Virus record (IMG/VR): IMGVR_UViG_3300034093_005754
Span: 1-31,922 of that record
Origin: a virus
DNA length: 31,922 nt
Direction: 5' to 3' (one strand)
Positions 1,399 to 28,574 of the stretch are shown in pieces. The number at the start of each line of letters is the position of its first letter. Within the stretch, counting starts at the first letter, position 1. Below the pieces are notes generated by a model. That model had not been told where the DNA came from and did not search any database. It worked only from the letters and a program-made list of their open reading frames with translations. Made by a program: the position numbers and the translations under genes.

Positions 1399-4300
1399 TT
1401 ACCTATCATATAAACCACCTCTATTTAAGCTACCTCCAGGACGACGCTCTTGCTTGATTGTCTCTTGGATTTTTGCTTCTAAAGCTTTTTCAAACAAGGC
1501 TTTGTTAATGTTGCCGTTGCCACCCTCGCTATTATTAATGTTCACGTTAGGCGTAATGTTAATCGTATCTCCACTTCTTCCTACGTTATTAATATTCCCT
1601 AAACCTTCACCTATCATACCGCCGCTACTGAAACTCTCCAATTTATTACTACTGTTTAGTTGATTCCATAACTTAGTTTCTTTTGGAGTTAAAACCCGTT
1701 CACCTTCGTTAGCGATAATTAAGCGTGGGTTAAACCCACTTATCGCCCTTTCCTTGTTTAATAAATCCCCAACCATTCCGCCTTTAGCAAAACTAGGGAG
1801 CGTAGCTGAACCAAAGTCTAATCCGCCGTCTAAACCACCTAAGCTAAAACCATCGCTAAAGTCAAATGCTCCGCTAGAACTAAATGGGATTGCGCTACTG
1901 CCTTCGAGTATTCCAAAACTACTCTCTCCAAACGCTCCAAAAATACTATCTAGCACTCCGCCATCTTTGCTACCTGCGCCCATAATATTTTGCAAGTCTA
2001 AAGCCGCTTGTTGTAGCATTGTAGCGGACACACTTAGATTAGCTCCCGCGTTATTTAAAGCGATCGCGCCCACGTCTTTAACTTTATTGCCAAAAATAAT
2101 TTCAGTTAATTTACCAAATAGTTGGTTAGACAGTTCCTTACTTGCAACAGCAGCTAAATTGCTTAAAATACTTTTTGCAATCTCGCTAAAAGCATCGACT
2201 ATACTTCTTTTACTCAACTCTGTCTTTTTCTTTTCTAAGTCTCTCTGCGCTCTATCTAATTCTTTTAGTTGTTTGTTATTGCCTGAATTTTGGTATGCGT
2301 TTCTTACTTCCTGAATATTACCGGACGTATTCATTATAATGTCGCGGCGTTTCTTAGCAATCTCATCTAGGGATTTATTAATATCCTGTAAATCGCCAGC
2401 GTTTTTATTAACAGAGTCGTTCATGAAAAATCCCTTTAGGATATTGTCAAAATCTCCTTTAATTCCGCTAATAGCCTCGGTGAACATATTAAATTCTTTC
2501 GCAACATTGTCTAGTTTTAACTCGTTTAGCTTAAGTAAATTTTCACTAAGTACAGATATTTCTTCTGCTGAATAATTACTTGATAATCCTAGTTTAGCTA
2601 TTTCGTTTTTTTCCTTCTCAAAATCCATCTTAATTTGTGATAAAAGCTGTGCTTTTTGCAATTCCTTGTCTCTAACTCCGAACAAACCCCGACCTCTTAT
2701 TATCTCGGAAGAAATTGCACTACCGGATGAATTTAATTTTTCCATCCTGCCGAGTTCAATGCCTCTATTTGTAATCGGCGCGAGCTTAGTTTGGTAAGAA
2801 TTTTCTGCGTCAAGGTTAGATTTTTCTTTTCCGTAATTACGGAAAGCTTTTAGTCGTTCTATTAATTTTTCTTGTGGACTAAGTAAGGTGTTACCTTGAA
2901 TTTCCAATAATTGTTTCTTGTAAGCATTAGTTAGCTCGTTAGTTTTTATTGTTAATTCATTGGTTAAGCTGACTAAACTAACCATCCCATCCTTATTGTC
3001 AATCGCAAACCGTTCATTGTCTAGTTGCAATGATTTCATTTGCGAGGCTTGGATAGTTTGCGATTTAGTTAATTCGTCGTTAGCTTGCTTAATTCGCTTA
3101 ACTGTATCGGCATAATTAAAGTTAAGATCAACGCCCTCTCTTTTAACAGAATTAACATTGAGAATGGCTTTAAATTCCTTCTGAAAAGCTGCTTCACTCA
3201 TGTTACCGCCCTTACCTCCGCCATCATAATAACGTCTTTGGAGATCTAGTAATTGTTGGTATTGGTCACGGGTTAATTCTAGTAAGCTAATATTTCTTTG
3301 AAGTGATGGAATTTTTAAAACCAACGGATTTAGCGGGTCAATTTCCTCAAGTTTTTGAACTAACTGTAACTGTTGTTGTAGTTGTTCAATAACTTTTGAT
3401 TGTTGCGATATATCCTGCTCGCTTAATCTGAAAAACTCTTTTTTGTCAAAATCTTTCATTGACGCTTTGAGGATGCTATCAATATTGGATTCTAAAAATT
3501 TCAAGCTATTTTTAGCTTCTGCATTTTTAAAAGCTGTAGCTTTAAAACTTAGATCGTTTGTCTGGATTGCGGCTGCGGCTAATCTCGGATCATTAGGAAA
3601 TCTCTTCATTGCCAGATTAAATGCGGCTTGTAAGTCCGGTTTTTGCGCGATCGCTCCATCCGTTTCTCTAACAATTTGCTCTAACAACTCAACATCTTTC
3701 TCTAATTTGCGGCGTAATTCATTAAATTGGAGACTAAACATATCCGCATTACTCATGGTAGGAGATAAACCTTTTAACACCGTTATTCTAGTCCCTAGAG
3801 TAGAATCTTTCGTACTGCTGATGTCTCCTATCGCGGTTTTTTGAGAGGACATAATAAGCCTGTAAGCCTCTAGCCTTTGTTTTAGCTCATTTTCTCTGAT
3901 TTGTTCAGGATTTAGGTTGCTGTTAGTTTGATTAGTTTGATATTGTTGGGCAGCGGTGTTTAATTTAAGTCTACTAGCTTGTGTTACCGCTTCCTGCATT
4001 TGGTTGGGTTGAATACTTCCGCCTTGCATAACAATCTGCACCAATTGTCGCGCTGTATTGCCGTACCGATTTTCTGCTTTGGGGAGGTAATTACCTAGCG
4101 TAATATCACCATCCCCTACTCCTAATGATGCGTTAGGATTTCCCGCAAAAACGGTAGATAAAACTTTTCGGAAGGAGTCTAGCTTTTGCCCTCTACTGTT
4201 CTGTTTTAAGTATTTCTGAACAAAGACTAATTGCTCTTGTGGACTCATTTGAGACAGAGCGTCTATGTTTGTACCCAGTCCTCTAGCCGTAGCGGGCATG

Positions 4301-7300
4301 AACTGAATTAAACCTGTTGCGTTTGTGCGTTTGTTCCTAGCAGATGGCGAAAGTGTACCACCTGTTTCATACAGCATCGTTTTAAGCAGGTCTTCAGGGT
4401 TTGCTCCTACGCTTTGAGCTATTTCGCTAACGCTTTGCAGGAACTTGGTATCTATACGTGGATCTAGCCCTGGAACAAGCGGAACTGATTGGCGTTGTTT
4501 AGCAATGGGTTCGATTACCGATATCAAACCTTCTGCCGCTTTTAATGCGTAAGGTGTAATAGCTTTTTCGTAAGCACTAAAATCGCCTGTTTTCACACCT
4601 TCTTCAATCAAGGTTGTAAGAGTTGAATTTAATCTATCCAACTCTAGTATAGAAATTCCCTTGTCAATAGCTCCCAAGCGTTCATCAGGGTTTTTTCTAA
4701 CGTCTTTACCACCCACACCCCAAAAATAACTAAATGCTCCAAATTTGTTTGCTAAACCAACATCCATTGGATTCAAATATTTACCAGACGGATCGTATTT
4801 ACCCCCTGGAATTACGCCGGGTTTACCCCCTTTAGGGTCATCAAAATGTAGTTCTAACGCATAAGCATTTTTGCTTTTCTCTAACTTAGCAAGTTCCGTT
4901 TGATAATCTTTTCTGGCTTGATCCCCTCTAGCTGACGGTAGTGGGGGTGGCTGAATGAGTTTAAACCCTTTTTGAGCAAAGACTCGCTCGAATACCTTGA
5001 CGGCTTGCTCAGTCCCAATAGATTCAATAGTTCTATTTTCGCCTTTGTAGTTTAAACTTCCTGTTTGATTTGTTCCGCCTGTACCTGTTTTGATGTCTAG
5101 TCTGTGTCCAGGGGTTAGTATTATTGATTTTGTTGGCTGTTGTTGAGGCATCGGCCAATCTGCTACCCTGTTCAGCATCTTGTTGTCTTGTGTGGTATCA
5201 ACAACCTTTTTGGTTGTATCCAATTTAATCCCAGGTACTTTAAAAGTTTTACCTAACTGGGTAGTTGGGTTTATCCTTTGACCGTTGATCGTTACCTCCC
5301 AATGTAAATGCGATCCTGTGCCACGCCCAGTGCTTCCAACTTTACCTATTACATTACCTTGCTGTACAACGTCCCCAACCTTTTTAAGTAATTCAGATAA
5401 GTGAAAAAAGCGGTTTACAACTTTTTTACCTTCTGCGGTGATGGTTTCAACTTCGACCATATTGCCCGCACCACCATTCCAACCACCTTTAGATGTGATA
5501 ACCGTGCCTGTCAGTGGTGCTTTAATTGGTGTTCCTGTAGCGTCTTCAAAATCAACACCGTTGTGCATTTTTCTAGTGCCGTCCAATGGGTCTGTACGCA
5601 TTCCGTACTTAGATGTTACGCGCCCCGGCGTAGGTCTAAGCAAAGTTTGATTAACAGTCTGTAAATTATCCAATCCGTAGAACTTTTTGACAGCCCCTAA
5701 CGGATTACTAACAAACTCTTTAGCACCCTGCTCTAACTGTTGCCCAGCTTTTTCCCCAAACACCGTGCTAACCGCCGATTGAACACCGCCCGCTAAATTT
5801 TGTAACAAGCCTTGTCCGGTAGCCAGGGAAGCTAACCAGTTGGAGGTTTTTATTCCCATATCAGCGATCGCAGTCCCCACGCGATCAAAGCCGTTCTCAA
5901 AAGACTTAACTAAATCTGCAAACTTAGTACCAAGACCTTCTATCCATGAGTTGCTAGTTTTACTTAAGTCTTTAATACTATCTTCAGCTTTTTTAGTTGC
6001 GTCTACAACACTGTTAGATAAGTTATTTATATTCTTATTAATTTCATCAACCGTCCTGTTTACGTTTTTAAGACTGAGATTAAAGTTATCGGCAATACTA
6101 GAATCTATCGAGATAATTTTTCCTGGTAAACTCCGTTGTAGTTCTATAGCTTGTAGCTGAATATCTTGGACGTTATTCTGGTAGTCAATCCTCTGTTTTC
6201 TTGCTTCTAGTCGTTGTTTCTCTATTTCGGTTGTTTGGGAAATTACATTAATAATCCCCTCAATAAACTGAGTGTAGATATTGTCCCCAGCACCAATTAA
6301 AGCCTCTCTAAGTTTATTCTGTACTTTAGGGTTTTCAAGGGTCTTTTGCGCTTTCTCAAATTCAATACCCACAGCTTGAGATTCTCGAACGGCTGCGCGA
6401 TAATAGTCGGTGACTTGCTTTGTTTGTTGGTAGAGGCTTTGGATTAAGTTATATTTCTGCTCTGCAATTTGTTGTTGCATATCAACAGTTTGGATTTGCA
6501 TTTCCTTAACTTTTATAAAGCCACTTAAAATCTCTTTTTCTTTACTTCCATCAATACTTCTTTCTTGTGCAGCCTTTAAGGTGTCTATACCGCTTCCTTT
6601 ATTTAAATTAAGGGCGTTTAAGACTCCATCTAAATCATTAACTTCCAATTGAGCGGACATCTCTTGGATTTGTTTTAAATTATCGGCAATTTTACCAGTC
6701 AGAGTGGCTTGAGTTTTTAAGTTGTTCGTATATTCCAGTTGCCCTGGTAAAACGTCCCCACTGCTGCCAAGGTTAAATAAATTAGTTTTCTCTAAACTTA
6801 ATGCTGTATCTCTATATTGTCTTAGATCGTTAAACTTAGCTTCTAAGTTCCTTATTTCAATTGCAAATTTTTGCATTTCTGTTAAGGAATTTTTAATAGC
6901 CTTAGTCATCTTGTCTTGTTCTTGAATAACTGTGGCTAAATCTTGTTTAGTTACCTTAATTATTTGATTAATTTGTTCAATTTCACTTTGATAAAGTTTG
7001 GGATTTTTCTTTAGTTCTTCCCAATACTCCAAATAAGTTTTTAAAGTTTCTACTTGTTTGTCTAAATTAGCTTTAGTTCCGCCAAACAATTCTAAGGGCT
7101 TTTCTCTTCTTTGACTTAATTCTTTTTCTTGTTCTTGCAGTTCTCTTAATTGTTGAATGTCGCCAGGATTGTTAGCAATAACAGCCCGACGCTTCATTTT
7201 AATATCATCCAAAGATTTATCAATGGCTTGAATTTCTTGGATAGCGTCTTGTATGGCAGGAGAATTACTATCTTTCAAAATATCGAAAGTGTTTTGTTGC

Positions 7301-10300
7301 CCAATAGTTGTTTGTTTGGCACTATCCTCCATTTGTTTTTTTAGTTTTTTTGTATCGTTATCAAATGGGTTAAGCGTAAACCTTTCTCTAAGTGCTGAAA
7401 AGTCATCACGGCTAACTTTAGAGGATGGATTTAATAATTTTCTTTGTTCATTAATAGACTGAGTAACGTTTCTAGTCTGTTCGCCAATTGCGCCGCTGTT
7501 ATCCTTGAAATTCATCATTATTTCATCAATAGCTTTCATCGCCATTGATAAAACAAACATCTGAGCAGCTAAAGTTGCAATACTTTGACCCATCCCCAGC
7601 AATGCACCCTTAGCCCCTCCCGCAGAAGAGGAAATTCCTTTTAAATACGTCGCAAACATTAACCAAACAGGACTTCCTAATTTAATTAAGGTAATCAGTA
7701 AGACACTTTTTAAGAGTTGGAAATTCTTAGTTACTAAATCTATACCAGACGCAAAAACACTTAAAGAAAAGTTTCTGAAAGGCAGTAAAGTTTTACCAAT
7801 ACTTTCCTGTAACTCAATTAAGGAATTATTGAATTTATTAGTTATCGCCACTGAAGAATTAACGGCATCTCCTACACCTGATGAAGTTTGCGCTTTTAAT
7901 TGTTGAGCAAATTTTGGCAAAAAGTCCTCAGCTAAAACCCTGCCCGTTGCTAAGAGTTGGTTCATGGACTGGGTGGTTGTTCCGTAAGCATTTGCGGCGA
8001 TTTGCGAAGCGTTGGGGATTGCTTCAGCGAGTTGTTGTCTTAATTCCTCTTGAGATACAACCGTTTTTCCAGACATTTGCTCAAGCGCGGTAAAAGTCCT
8101 TTGCTGCTTGTCTAAATCTAAACCATAGACAGCCGAAGCTTGAGTGACTGCGCTAACGATCTGGCGAGATTGATAGCCTTCTATGGGAGTATCCTTAGTT
8201 GCCTGGAAGAATTTACTGCCACTTTCTAAAGTTTGGCTTAAGTCAACGTTGAGTCTTTTTGCTTCCGATCTTAAAAATGCAATATTTTTAGCACCCTCTG
8301 AAATGCTTCCAGAAGTGAACTTAATCCGTCTCTCTAAATTCTCAAAGTTAGCGGCGACTTCTATGCTTGCGGGAGCTAAATCTAAGATAATTTTCCCTAC
8401 GGCCAACAAAGCTAGGACTTTAACAACATTACCTATAGAAGATTTAACAAAGTCCATCATCTCGCCAAATTTCTGGACTTTACTCATTCCCTCTACAAAA
8501 CTATCAAAAGCCACCTTAGCCTGGATGAACCCTTCCTTAATTTTTTCTGGCATCTTAAGGAAATCTACAAATAATTCCTTAGCTGCAACAATACCGTTAG
8601 CTAACCCCTCGCCTAATGCTGCCGATACGTTAGGATTGGCGATTTCCTTAAGGAAATCTAAATAACCCTTAAATCTTTCCTTAGCTTCCTTAAATCCTGG
8701 GATACTTCCTAATCCTTTACTAAAGCCTCGGCTTAATTTATTTTTAAAGTTTTCCGCAGTAGAAGTTATATCTCCATCTTCTACAGCAGATTTAATATCG
8801 TTCATTAGCTCTATAAATATGCCAATAATACTAGAATCTTCTAAAAACCCAAGTCCCTTAGTAAATCCTTCGCCTACGTATTTACCAATTCTAATACCCC
8901 ACCTTGAGGGAGATTTAATTTCTAATTTTTCCTCAACGGTATCTATTACTGTATTTGCTAATTTTTCAGAAGATGATTTAACATTTTTTAAAGAATTATT
9001 TATACCTTCACTTAAACCTCCTCCTACGTTTTTACCAGTTCCTTGAAGTGCTGCGAGTTGTTTATTAAACTCATCCACCATTGCCTGTTGAGCTTCGGAC
9101 AGTGGTGGTTTTTTGCCGACTTGTTGGATAGGTGCAGGATAACCCTCCGTTGCTTTAACAGTTTTATGAGCAACTTCGCCAATCGCCTCAACAGGTTTAT
9201 TGGCTGACTTCCTGATACCCTCAGACAGTCCTTTGTTGATGTTGATGCCAGCCGACTCAGCAGCTTTTAAAAATTCAGGATTAAAATCGCCAATAACTTT
9301 AATGTTTTTGCTTAACGCTGTGCGAATAAAGGCAAGTAAGCTATCGCCATACTTTTTGAATAGTTGATCGGAAGAAATTTGGCTACTACCAATACGAATA
9401 GCTGAAATGTCGCTAGGCAAAACTGGAACGTGAGTTTGAGCTTCGACGTAGCCAGAATTTTCCTCATAGTTTCTCATCAAGTTTGCTTTGGGTGAAACAG
9501 AGCTTAATTGCCTAAATTGCGAACCCCTCCCTTCATAATCTTCTTTTAATTCTTCTATTGACTGATGTCTGTCTAAGTTGCTGTCTCTTTGAAGCCATGT
9601 TGTTTTATTAGCAATCCTAGACGGATCGATTAAAAACTCAATAGCCCCATAAGCCTCGTTTTTGGTATGATCTGCGCCATACTCTTTATGGCGCAAAGCA
9701 CTATAAAGAGTCCCACTTCGTCCAAACAGTTCAAGCTCTCTGGCAGCGCGATTGCTTGACGGTCTTCCCATCAATCCACTGCCAAGAATATTGTTTAGCT
9801 TGGATGGATCAAATGACGTTCTGTGGCTCAAATACCAGTCACGCAAGCTGTTTGTTAATTCCTCTCCGCCATTTAATTTTGGATCTTGATTAACGAAGTC
9901 AAAAGTTTTTGCAACATCGTCAATCCCAGACTTAGCTATTTCTTTAACCTTGTCTAAACTATTCTCTAACCCAATCCCGTAACCATCTCCAGTATTTTCG
10001 CCATACCCCTCCATTACTTTAGATGGAGATTGCATTTTTAATTTTTCTGTAACTACGTCAGGTACTATATCTGCTAATTTTTCAGCCGCAGTGCGTAAAT
10101 CACCTATGCTATTTTCCAAACCTTCGGTCATGCCCTTGCCTACATTTTCCCCAACGCTAGGTAAGTTTAGTTTATTAACGTTAACTATCCTATCTGTTTT
10201 ATTTTGGACGCTAGATATTTGACTTAAAGTTTGTCCTAATTGACTGCCCAACCTTGTCGAGCCAACGTTATTATTCTCACCTAAAGTTTTAGTGATTAAT

Positions 10301-12696
10301 TTAATCTCTTCTCTTGCTTTAACTCCCATCTGCTTAATGGTCGCCGCCATATTTGCGGCTTCATCTAAATTACCAGACTTAGTTAAAGTTTGTAAAGTTG
10401 CAAAACTTTTGTTAAATTGCGCTGCAATATTTCTAGCTGATTCTAGTCCAACCCTTGCTTCAGGGCTTAAATCTGCATCTTTCTCCCTAGTCTTAAAATC
10501 TTTTAAATATTCTTGCCCTTGGGGAAACTGTGCATTTATTCTAGCAAGTCTTTGGTTGTCAGTGTATTTTTCTCTAGCGGTTCTAGTGTCTTTTTTGGGA
10601 TTTTTATTTAAGTCAGTTAATCTAGCTTGTTCTTCTAAAGTTTCCAATACTCTAGTTTGTAAAGTTTTTAATTCGGGATAAAACTTAACAGCTTTTTCTA
10701 ATGTTTTAGCTAGAGATTGTTTAATCTTTGCTCCAGAATCTAAAAATTCAACAATACCTGCTCTCATTTCTTCTAAAAAAGCAGTATACTCATCAAACTC
10801 TGGTTTAATGTCTTTACCTATTTGTCTCGCGTTTGGTAAATTTCCCATCATGGAAGAAAAGTCATATTCTCCTCTTCTCCATTCTGGTTTTTGAGGAACT
10901 GCAAAAGTATAACCCTCCGCGCCGTTAAATCCTGCTTTTTCAATTTGCCTTAAGGTTGAGCCGTCACCCAATACAGCTTTAAGAGTTCTAACTAAACTGT
11001 CTTTCTCATCTAATTGAGATTTAAAAAAATGTAAATTAGGCTCACTCTTTATCCCTTTAGATAAAGACGGACTTACGGGATCTATCGCGTCTCCCAAAAA
11101 CGACTGTATTTGTTCATTTACCATAGGCTTGGTTAGGAAGGGAAGTAATGCGTGACCCTTCCCCGCTCCTGGTATAAGAGACATTAATGGGGACTCCTCC
11201 ATAAGTCCCGGCATACCATAAGACATCACCTTGAGAGTTGCCTTATACACTGGATGTTCTTTGTCCGCTACATTTTTACCGCCAAACATAACAACGTTTA
11301 AAGGATCGAACTCTCCAACTAAGGATTGGTAATTTTTCTGACTAGCCGTAGTCATTAAATTATTTACTGGTGCTGTCAATCCCAATCCCTTTACGTTCGT
11401 TATTCCTGCCCTTTCTAGGATTGCGATCGCTTCCTCGACTATGTAAGACCCACCACTTGTCCCCGCTAACTGAATGGGTTTGTCTGGATATTTTTTTCGG
11501 TAAGCCATAGCTTCAGCGGCCATCTTTACCGAATCCGGGTTATATCCTTTCTCCAAGTTAGTATGTAAAAGCATATCAAACGGCATAGGCTCAGATGCAG
11601 GTCTTTCAACTCCGTCCGCGCCAACCACCGTGCCACTACTTAGATCTGCCCTAAACTGATAAATCTGCCCTAAATTATTTTTATCATTTGAATAAGGGTT
11701 AGTAACGGGAACAGAATAAGACCCCGGCAAAATCCTTTTGACTAAGTTCTCTGCAAAAAAAGTATTTCGCCCACCCTTCTGGAAGTCAATACCTCCAGTA
11801 ATTAAAGAAATTGATTTAGCTTTTTTTATATCTTCGTTGTCAGCGACATTTACATTTTCTGACATTTTTGCAGCATCTTGCGCGGATTGAGCGAGTAATA
11901 CTCTTTTTCTAATTCTTAAGGGTTGTGCGCCAACTTTAAGAACTTGTCCTGCTGCGGTATATGCAATTTCTTGAATTTCGTCAACTATAGGCTGAAACGC
12001 TGCTTTAAATTTCTCTTGCGCCTGAGTTTGATTTTTAAATACGAACGCATCTTCCAGTGCACTAACAATATCGTCTTCAAATTTTTGAATACTTTCTGGC
12101 GTAACCTTAGATAAAGGTTTCGACACTGCGCGGGTAAAAGACTGAGTAGCTCCAGCGACATCTAATCCTAAGTTTTTCTTAAACCCAGACATTAAATTTT
12201 TACCAATCGTTCTACCAAACTCCTCAGTAAGTCCTGTTCCTAAAGACCGACCTAAACTTAATTTAGCCGAATCCATTACGGCTTTTTCTACTGATTTTAA
12301 TTGTCCGACTATTTCTCTAGAATTGTTATTATTATTAATTACTAAATTGGCTTTTTCTTTATTTACTTCTACATCTACTCTCACTCTAGCTCTGCCGTTA
12401 CTACCTTTGGTTAGCGATGCTAATTCCTTATTTAAGTTAGTTAATTCCCCGTCATCAACAAAAACTTTTAAAGGATTGTTTTTAAAATAAGTTTGTGTTT
12501 GCTTAAAGTGAGTTACCTTTAAGTCAAAATGTTTATTAAGGTTTTTTAGCGAGTCATCATTAACGCCTATGGTTAAATTAAGATCTTTCTCTAGAAATTG
12601 AGCTTGTTTAATAGCCTCGACCCTAGCCTTTTTTATATCTTCCATTAGCTTGGAGTAATCACCAACTAACTCAACAACTAATTGTGGTAATTCCAT
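1399..12696 (-). CDS. giant tape measure protein with M23, amidase and SLT domains
   Basis: A 3765-aa tail tape measure that sets tail length and helps DNA entry. The core lies at about residues 1430-1600 (ANFENLERRI to the QELRQQLAEAIPNASQIA region), with long coiled-coil stretches after it and SPS-K/R glycine motifs near 890 and 1258. Three peptidoglycan-cleaving domains follow one another. M23 endopeptidase spans about 2355-2480 (HNGVD H2378/D2382, HLH H2463/H2465). An amidase_3-like domain spans about 2525-2730 (probable zinc ligands H2531, E2558, H2617). A lytic transglycosylase spans about 2750-2860 (E2777 in YETGG, GLIQFMPATA). Near the N-terminus, residues about 295-480 look like an alpha/beta hydrolase with nucleophile elbow GTSGG (S414). 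Residues about 950-1145 are a globular module I cannot assign. It starts 5 nt after the GT reading frame ends. Lambda's tape measure is 853 aa, so this is very large. Confidence 0.93.
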   Translation of the reverse strand: MELPQLVVELVGDYSKLMEDIKKARVEAIKQAQFLEKDLNLTIGVNDDSLKNLNKHFDLKVTHFKQTQTYFKNNPLKVFVDDGELTNLNKELASLTKGSNGRARVRVDVEVNKEKANLVINNNNNSREIVGQLKSVEKAVMDSAKLSLGRSLGTGLTEEFGRTIGKNLMSGFKKNLGLDVAGATQSFTRAVSKPLSKVTPESIQKFEDDIVSALEDAFVFKNQTQAQEKFKAAFQPIVDEIQEIAYTAAGQVLKVGAQPLRIRKRVLLAQSAQDAAKMSENVNVADNEDIKKAKSISLITGGIDFQKGGRNTFFAENLVKRILPGSYSVPVTNPYSNDKNNLGQIYQFRADLSSGTVVGADGVERPASEPMPFDMLLHTNLEKGYNPDSVKMAAEAMAYRKKYPDKPIQLAGTSGGSYIVEEAIAILERAGITNVKGLGLTAPVNNLMTTASQKNYQSLVGEFDPLNVVMFGGKNVADKEHPVYKATLKVMSYGMPGLMEESPLMSLIPGAGKGHALLPFLTKPMVNEQIQSFLGDAIDPVSPSLSKGIKSEPNLHFFKSQLDEKDSLVRTLKAVLGDGSTLRQIEKAGFNGAEGYTFAVPQKPEWRRGEYDFSSMMGNLPNARQIGKDIKPEFDEYTAFLEEMRAGIVEFLDSGAKIKQSLAKTLEKAVKFYPELKTLQTRVLETLEEQARLTDLNKNPKKDTRTAREKYTDNQRLARINAQFPQGQEYLKDFKTREKDADLSPEARVGLESARNIAAQFNKSFATLQTLTKSGNLDEAANMAATIKQMGVKAREEIKLITKTLGENNNVGSTRLGSQLGQTLSQISSVQNKTDRIVNVNKLNLPSVGENVGKGMTEGLENSIGDLRTAAEKLADIVPDVVTEKLKMQSPSKVMEGYGENTGDGYGIGLENSLDKVKEIAKSGIDDVAKTFDFVNQDPKLNGGEELTNSLRDWYLSHRTSFDPSKLNNILGSGLMGRPSSNRAARELELFGRSGTLYSALRHKEYGADHTKNEAYGAIEFLIDPSRIANKTTWLQRDSNLDRHQSIEELKEDYEGRGSQFRQLSSVSPKANLMRNYEENSGYVEAQTHVPVLPSDISAIRIGSSQISSDQLFKKYGDSLLAFIRTALSKNIKVIGDFNPEFLKAAESAGININKGLSEGIRKSANKPVEAIGEVAHKTVKATEGYPAPIQQVGKKPPLSEAQQAMVDEFNKQLAALQGTGKNVGGGLSEGINNSLKNVKSSSEKLANTVIDTVEEKLEIKSPSRWGIRIGKYVGEGFTKGLGFLEDSSIIGIFIELMNDIKSAVEDGDITSTAENFKNKLSRGFSKGLGSIPGFKEAKERFKGYLDFLKEIANPNVSAALGEGLANGIVAAKELFVDFLKMPEKIKEGFIQAKVAFDSFVEGMSKVQKFGEMMDFVKSSIGNVVKVLALLAVGKIILDLAPASIEVAANFENLERRIKFTSGSISEGAKNIAFLRSEAKRLNVDLSQTLESGSKFFQATKDTPIEGYQSRQIVSAVTQASAVYGLDLDKQQRTFTALEQMSGKTVVSQEELRQQLAEAIPNASQIAANAYGTTTQSMNQLLATGRVLAEDFLPKFAQQLKAQTSSGVGDAVNSSVAITNKFNNSLIELQESIGKTLLPFRNFSLSVFASGIDLVTKNFQLLKSVLLITLIKLGSPVWLMFATYLKGISSSAGGAKGALLGMGQSIATLAAQMFVLSMAMKAIDEIMMNFKDNSGAIGEQTRNVTQSINEQRKLLNPSSKVSRDDFSALRERFTLNPFDNDTKKLKKQMEDSAKQTTIGQQNTFDILKDSNSPAIQDAIQEIQAIDKSLDDIKMKRRAVIANNPGDIQQLRELQEQEKELSQRREKPLELFGGTKANLDKQVETLKTYLEYWEELKKNPKLYQSEIEQINQIIKVTKQDLATVIQEQDKMTKAIKNSLTEMQKFAIEIRNLEAKFNDLRQYRDTALSLEKTNLFNLGSSGDVLPGQLEYTNNLKTQATLTGKIADNLKQIQEMSAQLEVNDLDGVLNALNLNKGSGIDTLKAAQERSIDGSKEKEILSGFIKVKEMQIQTVDMQQQIAEQKYNLIQSLYQQTKQVTDYYRAAVRESQAVGIEFEKAQKTLENPKVQNKLREALIGAGDNIYTQFIEGIINVISQTTEIEKQRLEARKQRIDYQNNVQDIQLQAIELQRSLPGKIISIDSSIADNFNLSLKNVNRTVDEINKNINNLSNSVVDATKKAEDSIKDLSKTSNSWIEGLGTKFADLVKSFENGFDRVGTAIADMGIKTSNWLASLATGQGLLQNLAGGVQSAVSTVFGEKAGQQLEQGAKEFVSNPLGAVKKFYGLDNLQTVNQTLLRPTPGRVTSKYGMRTDPLDGTRKMHNGVDFEDATGTPIKAPLTGTVITSKGGWNGGAGNMVEVETITAEGKKVVNRFFHLSELLKKVGDVVQQGNVIGKVGSTGRGTGSHLHWEVTINGQRINPTTQLGKTFKVPGIKLDTTKKVVDTTQDNKMLNRVADWPMPQQQPTKSIILTPGHRLDIKTGTGGTNQTGSLNYKGENRTIESIGTEQAVKVFERVFAQKGFKLIQPPPLPSARGDQARKDYQTELAKLEKSKNAYALELHFDDPKGGKPGVIPGGKYDPSGKYLNPMDVGLANKFGAFSYFWGVGGKDVRKNPDERLGAIDKGISILELDRLNSTLTTLIEEGVKTGDFSAYEKAITPYALKAAEGLISVIEPIAKQRQSVPLVPGLDPRIDTKFLQSVSEIAQSVGANPEDLLKTMLYETGGTLSPSARNKRTNATGLIQFMPATARGLGTNIDALSQMSPQEQLVFVQKYLKQNSRGQKLDSFRKVLSTVFAGNPNASLGVGDGDITLGNYLPKAENRYGNTARQLVQIVMQGGSIQPNQMQEAVTQASRLKLNTAAQQYQTNQTNSNLNPEQIRENELKQRLEAYRLIMSSQKTAIGDISSTKDSTLGTRITVLKGLSPTMSNADMFSLQFNELRRKLEKDVELLEQIVRETDGAIAQKPDLQAAFNLAMKRFPNDPRLAAAAIQTNDLSFKATAFKNAEAKNSLKFLESNIDSILKASMKDFDKKEFFRLSEQDISQQSKVIEQLQQQLQLVQKLEEIDPLNPLVLKIPSLQRNISLLELTRDQYQQLLDLQRRYYDGGGKGGNMSEAAFQKEFKAILNVNSVKREGVDLNFNYADTVKRIKQANDELTKSQTIQASQMKSLQLDNERFAIDNKDGMVSLVSLTNELTIKTNELTNAYKKQLLEIQGNTLLSPQEKLIERLKAFRNYGKEKSNLDAENSYQTKLAPITNRGIELGRMEKLNSSGSAISSEIIRGRGLFGVRDKELQKAQLLSQIKMDFEKEKNEIAKLGLSSNYSAEEISVLSENLLKLNELKLDNVAKEFNMFTEAISGIKGDFDNILKGFFMNDSVNKNAGDLQDINKSLDEIAKKRRDIIMNTSGNIQEVRNAYQNSGNNKQLKELDRAQRDLEKKKTELSKRSIVDAFSEIAKSILSNLAAVASKELSNQLFGKLTEIIFGNKVKDVGAIALNNAGANLSVSATMLQQAALDLQNIMGAGSKDGGVLDSIFGAFGESSFGILEGSSAIPFSSSGAFDFSDGFSLGGLDGGLDFGSATLPSFAKGGMVGDLLNKERAISGFNPRLIIANEGERVLTPKETKLWNQLNSSNKLESFSSGGMIGEGLGNINNVGRSGDTINITPNVNINNSEGGNGNINKALFEKALEAKIQETIKQERRPGGSLNRGGLYDR

Positions 12697-17077: not shown

Positions 17078-19492
17078 TTAAACAGCCCTACGCGCAACTC
17101 TTAATTTAGCGCAACGGGTTTGTTGTCCTGCTGGGGAAGCTAAAGCTGCATCCAAGTCAATAACGCCAGTTTGTTCACGGCTAATCCAGATAAAAGATTC
17201 TCCCATGTTAAATGGAGTTGTACCAGAAGCGCGAACTTCCATTGGTAATGCAATACCGCGACCGACCGCACCGTAGCTAAATACGAAACAGTCTTCAGTA
17301 ACGGTTGCGCCCGCGCCAAAAGTAGTTGTGTTTACGGTTGGATCAGATCCACCTGGCGCACCAACACCCCATGTATTGCCTGAGAAAATTTCAAAGCCGC
17401 AATATTGACCGACGTAACCTGAGCTTTGTCCGATTTCAATTCCAGAAGCCGCACGGAGAACGTTAGAAATATTCTGGCGTTGTTCTTCAGTTACAGGAGA
17501 GTAAAGCTTGCCTAAAGATTTCTTTAGATTGTCTAAGGATTTAGGGGGAACTGTCAAAATGTAACTGTTATTAGGCAAAGTTGGCCATTGGTCGGCGTAA
17601 AGCTGGGAATAAACAGAAGACAGGAAGTCTTCAGTTAAAGTACCGTCATCTGTTGCGGCAACGTTAGCCGGAACGGACGTTACTTCACCCTTATCGTTGT
17701 AATAAACTTTAGTTGTCTTAAAGTATTCCTTACGCACCATCAAATCTTCAAATTTGAAGTAGTGCTGCATTAATACTTTATCCAACACTGCCATTAAGTC
17801 AATTAATGACGTAGCTTCAGTAAATTCTGGAATAAATACAGGGCGGTTGCCTACTCCTGTGCTTAAACCTAGACCCCATTGAGCAATAGTTAGCGGGACT
17901 GTGGTAATTTCCAAGCCTTGAGAATCTGTAGAAGTACCACGAGTATAATTAATGCTGGTATAGGTGTCGGTTGTGCTGATCAGGAAGTCGTTAACATCTG
18001 TAGGATCGGCTAAATTATTAGCGCGAGGAATCAGGATGGATTTATTGGGCGCAGATGTTGAGTCATATATAGTGGAAGCAAACTGCCACCAAATATTATT
18101 GGAGTTGTGAGTTTCTCTCATTAAAGCTGAGAGAACATCCAAGAAAATTGCGCCAATGCTGCCGCTCGATCCGATAGTTGGCCCGGCCGCACGACCAGAA
18201 AGAAATCCGCCACCCTCAGAAGATTTAAAGTAATTTTCTAATTCTTTAACCAAAGGAGCGTGTTTCCAATCACGCAAACCCTTAGTGGCTTGCTCTTCAC
18301 GGAAGTGATCGTGCATGAATCTAGCTAAAACATTATGATTCCGTTGGACTGCAACCATTCCATCGTGGCGAACTTCTGTAGGTTCGGCTTTGGAACTGTT
18401 AAATAAGTCAATAAATTCTTTAGCTAAACCTTGCATGGCAAACTTTGGGGTATTTTTAACGGCGGGGACGACTTCAGATCCGGAGCGGCCAATTAACTGC
18501 GAAATATCTTTAAGGGTATCAGCTAATTGCTGGGCTTTTAATCTCTCGGCGCGTTCTTGGTCTAATTCTTGTTTTAAGCTTGAATTTTCTGCTAAGGCTT
18601 GAGATTTTTCTTGTTCTAGAACTAAATTCATTTCCCGAACTGGAGTTACTGTTTCAAGAATTAATTTTCTAACGGCTTCTAAATCTAAGCCTTGAGGCTT
18701 CAACTCTGCTACGGCTACAATCTCCCTTTCCTCTAGCGCAGGAACGGGGTCGGGAGTTGAAGATTTAACTTCTTCTAAAGGTGTTAGTGGAGGCATATTT
18801 TTACCTTTAATTTGAATAATTTTAGGCTCATCTTTTCCATTGCGCTGTTGTAGGCTTTTACCTACTCCTACCGTCGGGTCGGCGGGTACGCTTGCATGGG
18901 ATATCTCAAATATTTCCCAATTTTTACTTATCCTGACTGGGTAATAACCCCTGTCTGCGAGTCCGTATTTTTCAATAAGAGCGGCGGCTTCTTTCTTGGG
19001 AAGTTCGGTGTATTCATCCTGTACTTGGTACATGAACGAAACACCTTTACGAGTACCCTTTTGGACTAAGTTATATAAGTCTCTACCCTCTGCGTTGTCG
19101 TCGTACTGGACATCGCAAATAGCCTTACCTTGGGAGAAATTTACCCCCATTACTAGGCCGCGTTGCAAATCCCAATTATGATTCCAAAGAATTGGGCAGA
19201 CACCTTCTGTAACCCTTTGAGTATTGCAACAGCCTGGCTCATGGGAAAGAACTTCGTAATATCTCTCATCTTCCCAGTAATCGTATCTAAGGATTGGATA
19301 TTCGGAAGAAAAAACAAAACTTGCGGTTAAGTTTCCTACTACTTCTTCCCCACTCTCCTCTTCCTCCATATCCTTATTTAAATTTAAAGATTTTGAGAAG
19401 TTGGGAAGAATTTCCAAATTAAAATATCGCGTAGCTTGACCTACGGCAATTTCACCATCCTTAAGTTCTAACCTTGCATTTTTCTCTGACAC
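17078..19492 (-). CDS. prohead protease-major capsid protein fusion
   Basis: An 804-aa protein with two parts. Residues about 45-215 resemble the S78/HK97 prohead protease: a His in LWNHNWD (H105), a Ser in KGVSFMYQV (S152), and the closing motif EISHASVPADP (H199), fitting an assemblin-type Ser/His arrangement. Residues about 233-340 are charged and coiled-coil-like, as in a delta/scaffold domain. Residues about 340-804 look like an HK97-fold major capsid protein (SPVTEEQRQNISNVLRAAS, GYVGQYCGFEIFSG). Protease and capsid protein are separate genes in HK97. Residue 233 is a Met preceded by AAAGGT 6 nt upstream, so an internal start could also make protease-free capsid protein. Translation begins at GTG (19492) with a weak ribosome site, so the start is less certain than the rest. 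Confidence 0.82.
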   Translation of the reverse strand: MSEKNARLELKDGEIAVGQATRYFNLEILPNFSKSLNLNKDMEEEESGEEVVGNLTASFVFSSEYPILRYDYWEDERYYEVLSHEPGCCNTQRVTEGVCPILWNHNWDLQRGLVMGVNFSQGKAICDVQYDDNAEGRDLYNLVQKGTRKGVSFMYQVQDEYTELPKKEAAALIEKYGLADRGYYPVRISKNWEIFEISHASVPADPTVGVGKSLQQRNGKDEPKIIQIKGKNMPPLTPLEEVKSSTPDPVPALEEREIVAVAELKPQGLDLEAVRKLILETVTPVREMNLVLEQEKSQALAENSSLKQELDQERAERLKAQQLADTLKDISQLIGRSGSEVVPAVKNTPKFAMQGLAKEFIDLFNSSKAEPTEVRHDGMVAVQRNHNVLARFMHDHFREEQATKGLRDWKHAPLVKELENYFKSSEGGGFLSGRAAGPTIGSSGSIGAIFLDVLSALMRETHNSNNIWWQFASTIYDSTSAPNKSILIPRANNLADPTDVNDFLISTTDTYTSINYTRGTSTDSQGLEITTVPLTIAQWGLGLSTGVGNRPVFIPEFTEATSLIDLMAVLDKVLMQHYFKFEDLMVRKEYFKTTKVYYNDKGEVTSVPANVAATDDGTLTEDFLSSVYSQLYADQWPTLPNNSYILTVPPKSLDNLKKSLGKLYSPVTEEQRQNISNVLRAASGIEIGQSSGYVGQYCGFEIFSGNTWGVGAPGGSDPTVNTTTFGAGATVTEDCFVFSYGAVGRGIALPMEVRASGTTPFNMGESFIWISREQTGVIDLDAALASPAGQQTRCAKLRVARRAV

Positions 19493-19587: not shown

Positions 19588-22500
19588 ATGTTTAACGAAG
19601 TTTATGCTCCGTCCGCAAAACCTGTGTTTTACCGCACTTATTCAAGAGGTAAAAAAGAGACATGGCAAGATGTTTGTGACCGGACAATTACGGCATTAAT
19701 TTCTCTGGGAAAATTAACTAAGACTGAGGGTGACTTAATTAGGCGATCGCAGGAAGAATTTAAAGTATTAAGTAGTGGAAGATGGCTGTGGTGTGGTGGT
19801 ACAGATTGGTTAAAAAAGCCAGAAAACGTTTACGGTGCTTATAATTGCTCATCCACAAACATTACAGACTGGGAAGCATTAAGCTTAATGATGAATTTGG
19901 CTATGCAGGGATGCGGGACTGGCGCAGTGTTGGAAGATAAATATATTAAAAATCTTCCTATTATAAGGAATAATTTAAGCGTAGAGATTGTTAATTTACC
20001 TGGCACTGTAAAAAAAGAAAACAGGCACGATGACACTATCGTTAGCGGCGCGCGCGGACAAGTTAACATTTTTGTTGGAGATAGCCGTAAGGGTTGGGTA
20101 GACTCTTACCTTACACTTCTAGAGTTGTCTTCAAGGGAAGATTTAGCGAAAAACGTTAAAGTTTTCGTTTGCTTAGGTGCGGTAAGAAGTAGTGGGGAAA
20201 AACTTAAAGGCTTTGGCGGAACAGCTAATCCCATAGCTTTAGCTGGGATGTATGGAAAATTAGCTAAGATTTTAAACGGGGCTATAGGTCGCCAACTTAC
20301 CGCTTTAGAGTTATGCAAGTTAATTGATGAGGCTAGTGTTACAATTGTAGCCGGAAATATAAGAAGGTCGGCGGGCATGAGACAGGGTTCGCCAGAAGAT
20401 ATAGAGTTTGCAACAGCTAAAGATAACTTGTGGCAACAAGACAATGAGGGTAACTGGAAAATAGATCCTGACAAAGATTGCTTAAGAATGGCTAATCATA
20501 CGTTAGTTTATCACCGTCGCCCAACTTTAGAAGAGGTCAAAAAAAGTGTGCAAAAACAATTCCACAGCGGTGAAGGTGCAATTCAATGGGCTGGCGAAGC
20601 GGTAGCTAGAGCTAACGTGGATTTACTCTCTAATAAGGATTTAAAAAATAAGTTTTTAGACTTATACAATAAGTCCTTAAATGAAGCATTAAATTTTTTA
20701 GCTAAGTTAGGGCTGTTGAGTATTACTGAAGCGGAAGAAAGGATGTCTAGGTACGCTACCAACCCTTGTTTTCGTGGGGATATGAAAATATTAACTAAAG
20801 ATGGTTACAGAGCATTCGAGTCGTTGGACGGTCAAGATGTAGAGATAATTAACGCAGAGGGCAATGTTTCTCTATCTCATATATGGTGTTCAGGTGAAAA
20901 GGAAACCGTAAGGGTAGGAATGGGGGCTTATGGAAGTATTCACTGCACTCCAGATCACTCTTTTTTAAATATTGATGGCAAAAGAGTTGACGCATCTGAA
21001 TTAAGACCGGGTGACAGATTAATGCCATTCTTAAAAGTGCCAGAGCATAAGAATAAAATATTCGTTTGTTTAGGATTTGTCCAAGGTGATGGTCAATTAT
21101 CTGATTTATCTGATTTGAAAAACGACAAAAAAGGGCAACTAGGTGTTGCTGTCAACATAGGTAAAAAGGATCAAGAAATCCTAGAATTTTTCCAAGAAAC
21201 GGAAGGTTTGAAATGCAAGAAACATGGCGAAAGGCGTATTTATGTTAACGGACTGAATGAGTTAATTGACAAATACGACTTTTCTCTTTACACCCTTCCA
21301 TTTCGCGCACTCCCATCCACTTATAAAGGCTGGGACTTAGACATAAAAGCATCGTTCTTGTCTGGACTTTATTCAGCTAACGGCAGTGTTCTAAAAAACG
21401 GCAGAGTGACCTTAAAGACGACCTGTAGAGAAATGGGCGAACAGATCGTTGATTCTTTAAAAGCAGACTTTGGCATAGAAGCTTATATAACCGTTAACCG
21501 TCCGACGACCGTGTCGTTCCCTAATGGTATTTACCAATGTAGAGAAAGTTACGACGTAAATATTCAGCAATACAAAGAGAGACTTTCATTCTTCAACCAA
21601 ATCAACTTTATTCATTCGTACAAGATTGATAAATTTGCCAAAACTCTCTTGGCAACCTCTCCCTCAATATCGGTAGTAGAAAAACAAGGGATTGTAAAAG
21701 TTTATGATTTTTCTGAACCAATAACGCACTGGGGTGTAGTAGAGGGCTTTGTCGCGCATAATTGCGGAGAAATTGTGGGTAACAATTTTTTCTGCGATCT
21801 CGCTGAAGTACACCTAAACACGCTAGATGGAAAAGACTTAAATAGTTTAAGAGACTCATTTAGGGCTGCGGGTTTAATTGCAGCCGTACTATTAAATGAC
21901 AAATTCCCTGACGAGAGATATCAAAAATCTAGGGAGTTAGACCCTATTGTTGGCGTTAGCTTTACTGGCTTATTTGACTTTTTCGTTAATTTATTTGGGG
22001 AAAGTTGGTTGCGCTGGTGGGAAGGCGGCAGGGAGGAATACTCAGACAGAGACTTTATCACATCAAAGGATTTAGAAAATTGGATAGAAACATTCCCAGA
22101 TGAGGTAGTTGAAATTATTAACGATTGGAATAAAAGCCAAGGGAAATTTGCTATAAAACACCCCGGCGTTTGCAACGGACTACTTTTTAAAGCCTTGGAA
22201 GAATTTTACCTGACGCTTTTTAAAGATGAAGCCCATAAAGCAGTTTGGGAATACTGTCATGCACATTCGCTTAAACGCCCCAATAGATGTACTACGGTGC
22301 AACCAAGCGGGACTAAGAGTCTCTTAACTGGCGCGTCTCCTGGTTGGCATCCTCCAAAAGCTGCTAGATTTATCCGTCGGATTACTTTTGGCAGAGACGA
22401 TGCAGTAGCTTTAGCTTGTATGGACTATGGCTACAGTATTATTCCTTCCCAATCTTGTAAAGATGCTGAGGGTAATTTATTAAACGATCCATTTGACCCA

Positions 22501-22971
22501 AGAGTTACGGAATGGTTGGTAGAAATTCCCACAAAAACTAGCTGGGCGGATAACATCGGGGAAGATGTAGATATAAGCAAATTTAGCGCAAAAGCCCAAT
22601 TTGACTTTTACCTACAAGTACAAAATTACTACGCAACTCACAATACTTCAGCAACTTTGGAAATACGTCAAGAGGAAATTGGGGAATATGCACAACTCCT
22701 TTACCAGAACATCCAAAATTGTGGCGGATATAGTTCTGCGGCACTTTTGGCAAGATTTGACGGTGGCGAAACTTTCCCTCGTCTGCCATTTGAGCCAATT
22801 TCTAAGGAAAAATATGAAGATTTATGGGGAGAGGTTTTAGCTCGCCGTAAAAATAGTAGTTTTGATGAACTTTTGCAAATAAGGTTGGGCAATGTAGCGG
22901 TAGAAGATTCTCAAGTTGGCCCGGCCGGATGCGACTCGGATAAGTGCTTATTTAAGGAAGTAGGCAAATAA
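19588..22971 (+). CDS. nrdJ: class II ribonucleotide reductase precursor with intein
   Basis: An 1127-aa precursor. Removing the 332-aa intein leaves a 795-aa adenosylcobalamin-dependent, RTPR-type reductase that turns ribonucleotides into deoxyribonucleotides for phage DNA synthesis. Motifs are YNCSST (C87, redox pair); NP-C-GEI, where the radical Cys is re-formed by splicing (N392, then C726 with E728); NNFFC (C736, second of the pair); and a C-terminal CDSDKC (C1115/C1120) shuttle pair. The length is close to that of Lactobacillus leichmannii RTPR (739 aa). Class II enzymes need no second subunit and are common in cyanobacteria and their phages. It forms a one-gene plus-strand cassette between the capsid gene and 23168-23692, ending in a strong terminator. 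Confidence 0.93.
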   Translation: MFNEVYAPSAKPVFYRTYSRGKKETWQDVCDRTITALISLGKLTKTEGDLIRRSQEEFKVLSSGRWLWCGGTDWLKKPENVYGAYNCSSTNITDWEALSLMMNLAMQGCGTGAVLEDKYIKNLPIIRNNLSVEIVNLPGTVKKENRHDDTIVSGARGQVNIFVGDSRKGWVDSYLTLLELSSREDLAKNVKVFVCLGAVRSSGEKLKGFGGTANPIALAGMYGKLAKILNGAIGRQLTALELCKLIDEASVTIVAGNIRRSAGMRQGSPEDIEFATAKDNLWQQDNEGNWKIDPDKDCLRMANHTLVYHRRPTLEEVKKSVQKQFHSGEGAIQWAGEAVARANVDLLSNKDLKNKFLDLYNKSLNEALNFLAKLGLLSITEAEERMSRYATNPCFRGDMKILTKDGYRAFESLDGQDVEIINAEGNVSLSHIWCSGEKETVRVGMGAYGSIHCTPDHSFLNIDGKRVDASELRPGDRLMPFLKVPEHKNKIFVCLGFVQGDGQLSDLSDLKNDKKGQLGVAVNIGKKDQEILEFFQETEGLKCKKHGERRIYVNGLNELIDKYDFSLYTLPFRALPSTYKGWDLDIKASFLSGLYSANGSVLKNGRVTLKTTCREMGEQIVDSLKADFGIEAYITVNRPTTVSFPNGIYQCRESYDVNIQQYKERLSFFNQINFIHSYKIDKFAKTLLATSPSISVVEKQGIVKVYDFSEPITHWGVVEGFVAHNCGEIVGNNFFCDLAEVHLNTLDGKDLNSLRDSFRAAGLIAAVLLNDKFPDERYQKSRELDPIVGVSFTGLFDFFVNLFGESWLRWWEGGREEYSDRDFITSKDLENWIETFPDEVVEIINDWNKSQGKFAIKHPGVCNGLLFKALEEFYLTLFKDEAHKAVWEYCHAHSLKRPNRCTTVQPSGTKSLLTGASPGWHPPKAARFIRRITFGRDDAVALACMDYGYSIIPSQSCKDAEGNLLNDPFDPRVTEWLVEIPTKTSWADNIGEDVDISKFSAKAQFDFYLQVQNYYATHNTSATLEIRQEEIGEYAQLLYQNIQNCGGYSSAALLARFDGGETFPRLPFEPISKEKYEDLWGEVLARRKNSSFDELLQIRLGNVAVEDSQVGPAGCDSDKCLFKEVGK
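20767..21762 (+). other. intein within RNR (332 aa) with LAGLIDADG endonuclease
   Basis: In-frame intein, precursor residues 394-725. It starts with Cys1 (CFRGDMKILTKDGY, block A). Block B has TPDH (T454, H457), and the end is VAHN followed by +1 Cys (H724, N725, C726), so every splicing residue is present. The insertion is inside the conserved NPCGEI active site of the reductase. The middle carries two LAGLIDADG-type motifs: LGFVQGDGQL (D501) and FLSGLYSANGSV. The second has Asn598 where the catalytic Asp is expected. The protein-splicing part looks intact, while the homing endonuclease may be weakened or dead. Confidence 0.92.
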
Positions 22972-27035: not shown

Positions 27036-27440
27036 ATGGAAGGATTAAAAAAAATAAACATTGGCGACATTTACTGGATGCCTGGCGACATTTACTGGAT
27101 GCCTTCAAATAAACCTATTGATAAAAAATCAATAGATATTAAATTAATAGTTACTAAAGTAGGCACTAAGTTTATCTATGCTAATAATGAAGATACAAAT
27201 TGGGAGTATAAGTTTACTTTTAAATCTGATGGTGTACTGGATTTAGTAAATAATATGTGTTCCGGTAAAGCTTATTCTGAGGAGCAATGGGAGAAGCAAA
27301 AGCTAATTATCAAGTTGGATAAATTAACTCAAAAATTCAAACAAGAGTTTTCGCAAATTAATAATTCTACAGACTTTAAAAAATATCAAGAGTTGGTTAG
27401 CGAAATGAATGAATTGTCTCAAAAGATTTTAAATCTATGA
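27036..27440 (+). CDS. hypothetical protein, 134 aa, with tandem repeat
   Basis: A ribosome site AGAGAGG precedes the ATG. The N-terminal half is beta-like (GDIYWMP, then IDIKLIVTKVGTKFIYANN, then EYKFTFKSDG). A helical second half follows, with EEQWEKQKLIIKLDKLTQKFKQ and ELVSEMNELSQKIL. The layout of a small beta domain that begins GDIYW and includes VTKVG, followed by a helix after AYSEEQWE, matches a beta-barrel-plus-helix protein common in phages and of unknown function. A perfect 21-bp in-frame tandem repeat duplicates GDIYWMP. It overlaps the adenine methyltransferase by 4 bp (ATGA). Confidence 0.6.
   Translation: MEGLKKINIGDIYWMPGDIYWMPSNKPIDKKSIDIKLIVTKVGTKFIYANNEDTNWEYKFTFKSDGVLDLVNNMCSGKAYSEEQWEKQKLIIKLDKLTQKFKQEFSQINNSTDFKKYQELVSEMNELSQKILNL
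27063..27104 (+). repeat. 21-bp perfect tandem duplication in coding sequence
   Basis: Two identical 21-bp units (27063-27083 and 27084-27104) encode GDIYWMP twice. Having no differences, the duplication is probably recent. Confidence 0.95.
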
Positions 27441-28357
27441 AGATCGCATACAACAACCCTCAAGCTATAACCGTCCTTCCCAATAATGCAAAATTAAAAT
27501 ACGAACATGACTTTAATTGTTTAACAGAAATAGTTAAAGATAAAAATTTTAAACCATTCCTTAAGTGGGTAGGAGGCAAAACTAGATTAATTCCTCAATA
27601 CGAAGAATTAGGATTAATCCCCGCCGAATTTAATACTTATTTTGAGCCATTTTTAGGTGGCGGCGCAATGTTTTTCCATCTCCAAAATGCGGGGTTAATA
27701 CAGAGGGCTTTGTTAAGTGATTTAAACTCGGATTTAGTGAATACTTATAAAGAAGTTAAGGATAATTTAAGTAAATTAAAACAAGTTCTTTTAAAGGAAT
27801 TTGCAGAATCTCACGATAAGGTTTTTTTTGAAGAAGTAAGGAACAAAACTTTTACGTTAGATGTTTATAATGCCGCAAAGTTTATTTACTTAAATAAGGC
27901 TTGTAGATCAGGAATGTATCGCGTTAATAAAAATGGCGAGTTTAATGTCCCGATGGGGGATTTAACACAAAAGATTTACCAGCCAATATTATTAAGTGAG
28001 GCAAACTTAGCCTTAAACAGTAATAATGTAGCGGTAGTTAATACATCTTTCTTTAATATTAGTCATTTGCCTCAACCTGGCGATTTTGTATTTTTAGATC
28101 CACCTTATCATGGGACTTTTAATGGTTATAACAAAAGCCCGTTTGGGGAAGATGAGCAAGTTAAATTAAGAGACGTATGTAGGGAATACAATGAAAATAA
28201 AATAAAGTTTTTACTTTGCAATTCTCACAATAGTTTTATTTTAGATTTGTACAATGGGGATGAATTTAAAATTAATGAAGTTTGGAGAAATGGTACGATA
28301 AATAGTAAAGGCGCGGAAAGAGGTAAAGTTAAGGAGTTAATTATTAGTAATGTATGA
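27437..28357 (+). CDS. DNA N6-adenine methyltransferase (Dam/D12 class)
   Basis: A 306-aa D12-class N6-adenine methyltransferase that uses S-adenosylmethionine to methylate adenine in DNA. Motifs are WVGGKTRLIP near residue 42 (motif X), FEPFLGGGA at 69-77 (motif I, AdoMet binding), and DPPY at 221-224 (motif IV, catalytic). The first 35 residues are an extra, poorly conserved extension. The order of motifs is that of Dam-type enzymes, but the target (GATC or other) cannot be read from sequence alone. No restriction enzyme is nearby, so it is an orphan, likely to protect phage DNA or copy host methylation marks. It is translationally coupled to the genes on both sides. Confidence 0.9.
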   Translation: MKIAYNNPQAITVLPNNAKLKYEHDFNCLTEIVKDKNFKPFLKWVGGKTRLIPQYEELGLIPAEFNTYFEPFLGGGAMFFHLQNAGLIQRALLSDLNSDLVNTYKEVKDNLSKLKQVLLKEFAESHDKVFFEEVRNKTFTLDVYNAAKFIYLNKACRSGMYRVNKNGEFNVPMGDLTQKIYQPILLSEANLALNSNNVAVVNTSFFNISHLPQPGDFVFLDPPYHGTFNGYNKSPFGEDEQVKLRDVCREYNENKIKFLLCNSHNSFILDLYNGDEFKINEVWRNGTINSKGAERGKVKELIISNV

Positions 28358-28574
28358 CCCATTTTTAAACACAATAAAAATACTTCATATAGAGGTATTG
28401 TGGCAGATGCTTTATAACATAAAAGAAAGCGTAGAAATATTGGAAAAACAATCTGTGGCGCAGGAGAAAAGTAAGGATTATAAAAATTATTATAAATCCT
28501 TTAAATACCTAAATCAGTGCCGCTGGAAAGTTTTGGAGATTAGCAAAGAAATAGAAAGTAGGGTTTTGAAATAA
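28350..28574 (+). CDS. hypothetical protein, 74 aa, between the methyltransferases
   Basis: A small, probably all-helical protein. The middle reads IKESVEILEKQSVAQEKSKDYK, then NYYKSFKYLNQCRWKVLEISKEIE. It overlaps the adenine methyltransferase by 8 bp and the cytosine methyltransferase by 1 bp, so all three are made together. No family is recognised. The position suggests a partner or accessory of the methyltransferases, but nothing else supports that. Confidence 0.6.
   Translation: MYDPFLNTIKILHIEVLWQMLYNIKESVEILEKQSVAQEKSKDYKNYYKSFKYLNQCRWKVLEISKEIESRVLK

Follow-up and report, generated by a model that had tools for sequence, protein, structure and literature searches.

A giant tape measure gene on the minus strand

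The window analysed here, the whole 31,922-nucleotide stretch of viral record IMGVR_UViG_3300034093_005754, contains a tape measure open reading frame (ORF) of 3765 amino acids (P0001) at 1399..12696 on the minus strand, read from 12696 to 1399 such that residue n starts at nucleotide 12696-3(n-1); the plus strand across the same interval has stop codons throughout. The sequence-only reading that preceded this analysis had placed a 3765-residue tape measure in this interval and gave no strand; the protein is present, on the minus strand. It matches phrog_2335, tail length tape measure (5.8e-29), and the Pfam profile TMP_3 (PF20155; E 3e-19, 69.9 bits against a cut-off of 41), the latter over a tape measure core at residues 1445-1633 (7798..8364, minus). 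A conserved N-terminal domain (residues 1-95; 12412..12696, minus) is common to the tape measures of Cylindrospermopsis phages, and family comparison delimits a conserved C-terminal domain (residues 3630-3765; 1402..1809, minus).

Elsewhere in the window, an 804-residue fusion of prohead protease and major capsid protein (17078..19492, minus) ties the contig to Cylindrospermopsis phages, with a capsid similarity of 31%. The plus strand carries a ribonucleotide reductase ORF (19588-22971) with an apparent intein starting near residue 396, a Dam-like adenine methyltransferase (27437-28357), both features recognised by eye, and a DNA methyltransferase (28574-29590; PHROG 9.5e-54).

Adjacent M23, amidase-like and SLT domains

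Downstream of the core, the protein contains a Peptidase_M23 domain at residues 2376-2477 (5266..5571, minus), which matches the whole of PF01551 (profile positions 1-96; E 4.8e-25, 88 bits against a cut-off of 28.7) and retains the HxxxD and HxH zinc and catalytic residues H2378, D2382, H2463 and H2465. An SLT lytic transglycosylase domain at residues 2749-2873 (4078..4452, minus) is matched by phrog_21656 (E 3.6e-28) and by PDB 9udh (3.5e-16), and when excised it scores 21.3 bits against Pfam SLT (PF01464), exactly the cut-off; its catalytic glutamate is E2777, and the GLIQ motif lies within ATGLIQFMP. An assembly chimera was considered and rejected: the order M23, amidase, SLT recurs in the independently assembled contigs L002, L003, L004 and L006, which differ in their N-terminal thirds.

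Between these two lies a divergent Amidase_3 domain, at residues 2519-2734 (4495..5142, minus), assigned by bridging homology. The region itself has no Pfam match even at E 10, and sequence searches of PDB, phages and plasmids returned nothing useful. Its sole direct match is phrog_30576 (‘baseplate protein’, E 3.4e-8), the family of gp94 of Microcystis phage Ma-LMM01, the C-terminal 184 residues of which are 35% identical to residues 2519-2734 of the tape measure and match Amidase_3 alone in Pfam, below the cut-off (E 0.0041, 17.6 bits against 27, profile positions 3-110). Two provirus proteins are further relatives (43-45% identity) with the motifs kept. When IMG/VR was searched for Amidase_3 diversity, nearly all matches were near-identical relatives of the Clostridioides query. 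When the amidase region was modelled alone with AF2, from near-identical rows only, the model was of low confidence (pLDDT 47); Foldseek ranked CwlD, an Amidase_3 enzyme, first with a non-significant E of 0.4, and four further Amidase_3 enzymes were among the best 50 matches listed.

An alternative interpretation is that this region is a structural or degenerate linker joining M23 and SLT and no enzyme, as the missing Pfam match at E 10 and PDB sequence match, the low-confidence model and the clean absence of the region from relatives L071 and L014 would allow, but we consider this very unlikely because the region shares its 35% identity with a domain that matches Amidase_3, its motifs are kept in relatives at 43-45% identity, and comparison of profiles gave a clear result. 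A profile built from five amidase sequences aligned to an Amidase_3 reference profile (n = 13: CD27L, PlyPSA, AmiA, AmiB, AmiC and eight phage enzymes) over 139 columns with a score of 42.8 (hhalign E 3.8e-6, prob 87), compared with a highest score of 24.4 among 300 column shuffles, and all four active-site positions were aligned, H2531, E2558 and H2617 falling on the zinc ligands of the CD27L-led profile and E2685 on the catalytic glutamate. The comparison is significant only with the bridging relatives; with the single sequence, 3 of 100 shuffles scored above it. From these homologies we conclude that the amidase domain is real and divergent, a predicted member of the Amidase_3-like superfamily and not of curated PF01520; we use the label divergent Amidase_3-like because there is no direct Pfam match and the bridging relative lies under the cut-off.

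Every residue listed in the sequence-only reading (H2378/D2382/H2463/H2465; H2531/E2558/H2617; E2777) was found in place, to which E2685, a catalytic position missing from that list, is added. Profile searches (Pfam, PHROG) bore out its M23 and SLT assignments, and its Amidase_3 assignment stands by way of bridging relatives and profile comparison, not by a direct Pfam match. Its central observation thus holds: three peptidoglycan-cleaving domains lie side by side in a single tape measure, their active-site residues intact, and peptide, amide and glycan bonds would be their expected targets.

Exchange of the lytic cassette across the family

With the N-terminus as query, 55 viral contigs were retrieved, among which complete ORFs range from 2987 to 6228 residues. 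All relatives share the first ~95 residues and, where the contig extends that far, the TMP_3 core, and those read to their end share a C-terminal domain of ~130 residues. The variable lytic cassette is located between the core and the C-terminal domain. M23, amidase and SLT are found together in this tape measure and in L002, L003 and L004. L071 has M23 and SLT with the amidase missing, the gap falling exactly between ‘PTK’ and ‘QRQSVPLVPG’ with nearly identical flanks, while L014, L072, L073 and L076 combine a different M23 (M23b) with SLT. Other relatives have M23 with an RlpA-type DPBB (L032, 5.5e-12), M23 with a lambda-type lysozyme (L074; PDB 3d3d/1am7, 7e-11), M23-like with YkuD-like domains (L075, weak matches) or a T4-type lysozyme (L082, 2.4e-29). 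Pfam scans detected no lytic domain in the tape measures of Cylindrospermopsis phages CrV-01T and Cr-LKS4, which are 4416 and 2987 residues long, or in the C-terminal halves of L077 and L080.

Domain identity, intact catalytic residues and exchange across the family are direct observations. Because other combinations occupy the same place in relatives, the triple array is, as judged from sequence comparison, one of several forms taken by a lytic cassette whose enzymes are exchanged within this family of giant tape measures. A tape measure of this design can do without the cassette, as relatives appear to manage with none that Pfam detects. In the M23 domains of L032, L074 and L075, HxH reads HLD, with the second zinc histidine replaced by aspartate, and these copies may be inactive or altered. 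The tape measure ORFs of L077, L078, L079 and L083 reach 5772-6228 residues, several times the length of that of lambda.

Enzyme-like modules in the N-terminal variable zone

Residues ~112-1265 vary between phages with a 98%-identical core. In this zone lies a cutinase-like alpha/beta hydrolase domain (residues 280-590; 10927..11859, minus), a feature absent from the sequence-only reading, with a GTSGGS nucleophile elbow at S414 and D464 and H515 completing the proposed triad; a 19%-identical domain of L004, L046 and L050 has the elbow, Asp and His motifs as well. The module has weak Pfam matches to Cutinase and Abhydrolase_3, and cutinases made up most of the best 50 PDB matches that Foldseek gave for a low-confidence model (pLDDT 43; match prob 0.94-1.00, best E 1.5e-3). 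L004 has, in addition, a kinase-like domain (residues 961-1260 of its tape measure, nt 3938-4837 of its contig) that is also found in L046 and L050; its top three Pfam matches all belong to the protein-kinase-like superfamily (APH 0.0099, Kdo 0.01, Pkinase 0.026), it has an HNDLASANVFF loop, and the candidate Lys, Glu, HxD, Asn and Asp positions are kept in three homologues. The 6228-residue tape measure of L079 has a SprT-like, HExxH metallopeptidase-like domain (residues ~1540-1760, nt 4706-5368; 5.8e-4). None of the three modules, hydrolase, kinase-like and SprT-like, reaches the Pfam cut-off.

These N-terminal modules are situated among SPSK repeats, of which repeat 1 spans residues 848-912 (9961..10155, minus) and repeat 2 residues 1220-1282 (8851..9039, minus). 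A further module at residues 955-1135 (9292..9834, minus) is present or absent among close relatives, being found in L072 and missing from L014. An ADP-ribosyltransferase identity for it, suggested by motif resemblance by eye, was dropped, as it had no support from Pfam, PHROG or PDB. In L014, where this one module is gone, the remaining repeat is chimeric, with a left part similar to repeat 1, a right part 100% identical to repeat 2 and the crossover inside repeat 1. Such a chimera is the product expected from direct-repeat recombination, and would be compatible with gain or loss of the module; because the remaining repeat of L014 is chimeric, the N-terminal zone seems to be edited by direct-repeat recombination.

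Tail length and host

A tail of up to ~560 nm had been estimated from 3765 residues at 0.15 nm each. This estimate is not supported: the tape measures of near-identical phages span 3210-4264 residues and differ in whether they include globular cargo and lytic modules, which amount to hundreds of residues, so that total residues are no guide to tail length. For scale, cyanophage Mic1 has a 400-nm tail and a longest ORF of 2572 residues, which is not necessarily its tape measure (PMC7156551). Similarity of the capsid to Cylindrospermopsis phages and of the amidase to a Microcystis phage suggests a cyanobacterial host, an assignment drawn from the nearest relatives alone. No relative turned up when GTDB genomes were scanned with the N-terminus of the tape measure and with the ribonucleotide reductase. 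In the sequence-only reading, a thick cyanobacterial cell wall was the proposed reason for the three enzymes; this may hold, but Pfam detects no lytic domain in the tape measures of the Cylindrospermopsis phages.

Proposed role in entry and alternative interpretations

Taken together, we consider it very likely that this protein is the tape measure of a long-tailed, probably cyanobacterial phage, in which a modular cassette of M23 endopeptidase, Amidase_3 N-acetylmuramoyl-L-alanine amidase and SLT, placed after the core, opens the murein at adsorption. We infer the activity of the enzymes, its timing and their position in the virion as follows. In TP901-1, the C-terminus of the tape measure is at the tail tip and the N-terminus is head-proximal (PMC5099701); by analogy, the C-terminus here would lie at the tail tip, and the distal part of the tape measure would most likely leave the tip when the phage adsorbs. 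M23, amidase and SLT would then cut cross-links, stem peptides and glycan strands and so make a local opening in the murein, through which the tail channel could reach the inner membrane. Alternatively, the lytic domains might be cut from the tape measure late in infection and serve lysis or maturation instead of entry. Some phages process their tape measures, and the inspected genes of the incomplete contig include no recognised holin-endolysin pair. However, the domains are internal and followed by the conserved C-terminal domain, and where lytic domains of tail proteins have been described they serve entry (PMC9662197, PMC5099701), so we regard late release as very improbable.

The N-terminal modules invite a broader interpretation, which we advance tentatively and with rather less than even confidence: giant tape measures may be cartridge carriers, with a swappable wall-cutting cassette and SPSK-delimited interchangeable enzymes (esterase, kinase-like, metallopeptidase-like) that would pass into the host together with the tape measure, serve as first-minute effectors and be exchanged by repeat recombination. 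In the titles and abstracts of the open-access literature, we found no report of a cutinase, kinase or ADP-ribosyltransferase in a tape measure. The alpha/beta hydrolase, kinase-like and SprT-like modules could instead act on the envelope or in virion assembly without being injected, a possibility that we place only a little short of even. A cutinase-like esterase could target outer-membrane lipids or esters, and an N-terminus that is head-proximal, as in TP901-1 (PMC5099701), would exit last. Against this, the envelope offers no obvious substrate for kinase-like folds, and the fast turnover of the modules among close relatives resembles that of effector cargo.

Comparison with known systems

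Tape measures with wall-cutting domains are already known; here, near-identical phages form a series in which entire enzyme modules vary at two set positions. This natural series provides ready-made deletion and swap variants for the share of each lytic domain in entry, and could also show whether tail length tracks the total tape measure or its helical part only, and whether tape measures deliver enzymes into the host cell. The initial view that tape measures with one lytic domain are known and three are unusual understated the record, as is shown by CwlP, which has SLT and M23, and by L206, a provirus tail protein with DPBB, amidase and M23; it was right that three are rare, though they are not unique. 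We found no report of the exact trio of M23, amidase and SLT in a tape measure in the open-access literature.

L206 (IMGVR_UViG_2909559933, 2131-4920) resembles the present protein in having three peptidoglycan-active domains, including M23 and the same type of amidase (45%), but its third domain is an RlpA-type DPBB instead of SLT, and a scan of its ORF found no tape measure core. In Ma-LMM01, the gp94 C-terminus is homologous to the amidase (35%) and the M23 gene gp95 adjoins, but this phage is contractile, its amidase is fused to a spike or baseplate protein and its M23 is a gene of its own. The tape measures of CrV-01T and Cr-LKS4 share the N-terminus, SPSK repeats, TMP_3 core and C-terminus with the present protein but have no Pfam-detected lytic domain. 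Sle1-type effectors of contractile injection systems (CIS) in Streptomyces likewise combine a tape-measure-related protein with exchangeable functional domains in a tail-like machine (PMC13277306), although that machine is a bacterial contractile particle and no virion, and in that work it was a C-terminal functional domain that was tested. Like the present protein, CwlP (YomI) of Bacillus prophage SPbeta, described as virion-associated (PMC9662197), is a long tail protein that combines an M23 endopeptidase with a glycan-cleaving domain of SLT type (PMC10653849, PMC9662197), but it has two lytic domains, lacks the amidase and belongs to another phage lineage and host. By analogy, the tape measure may work like CwlP plus an amidase, a likeness of domains and not a claim of descent.
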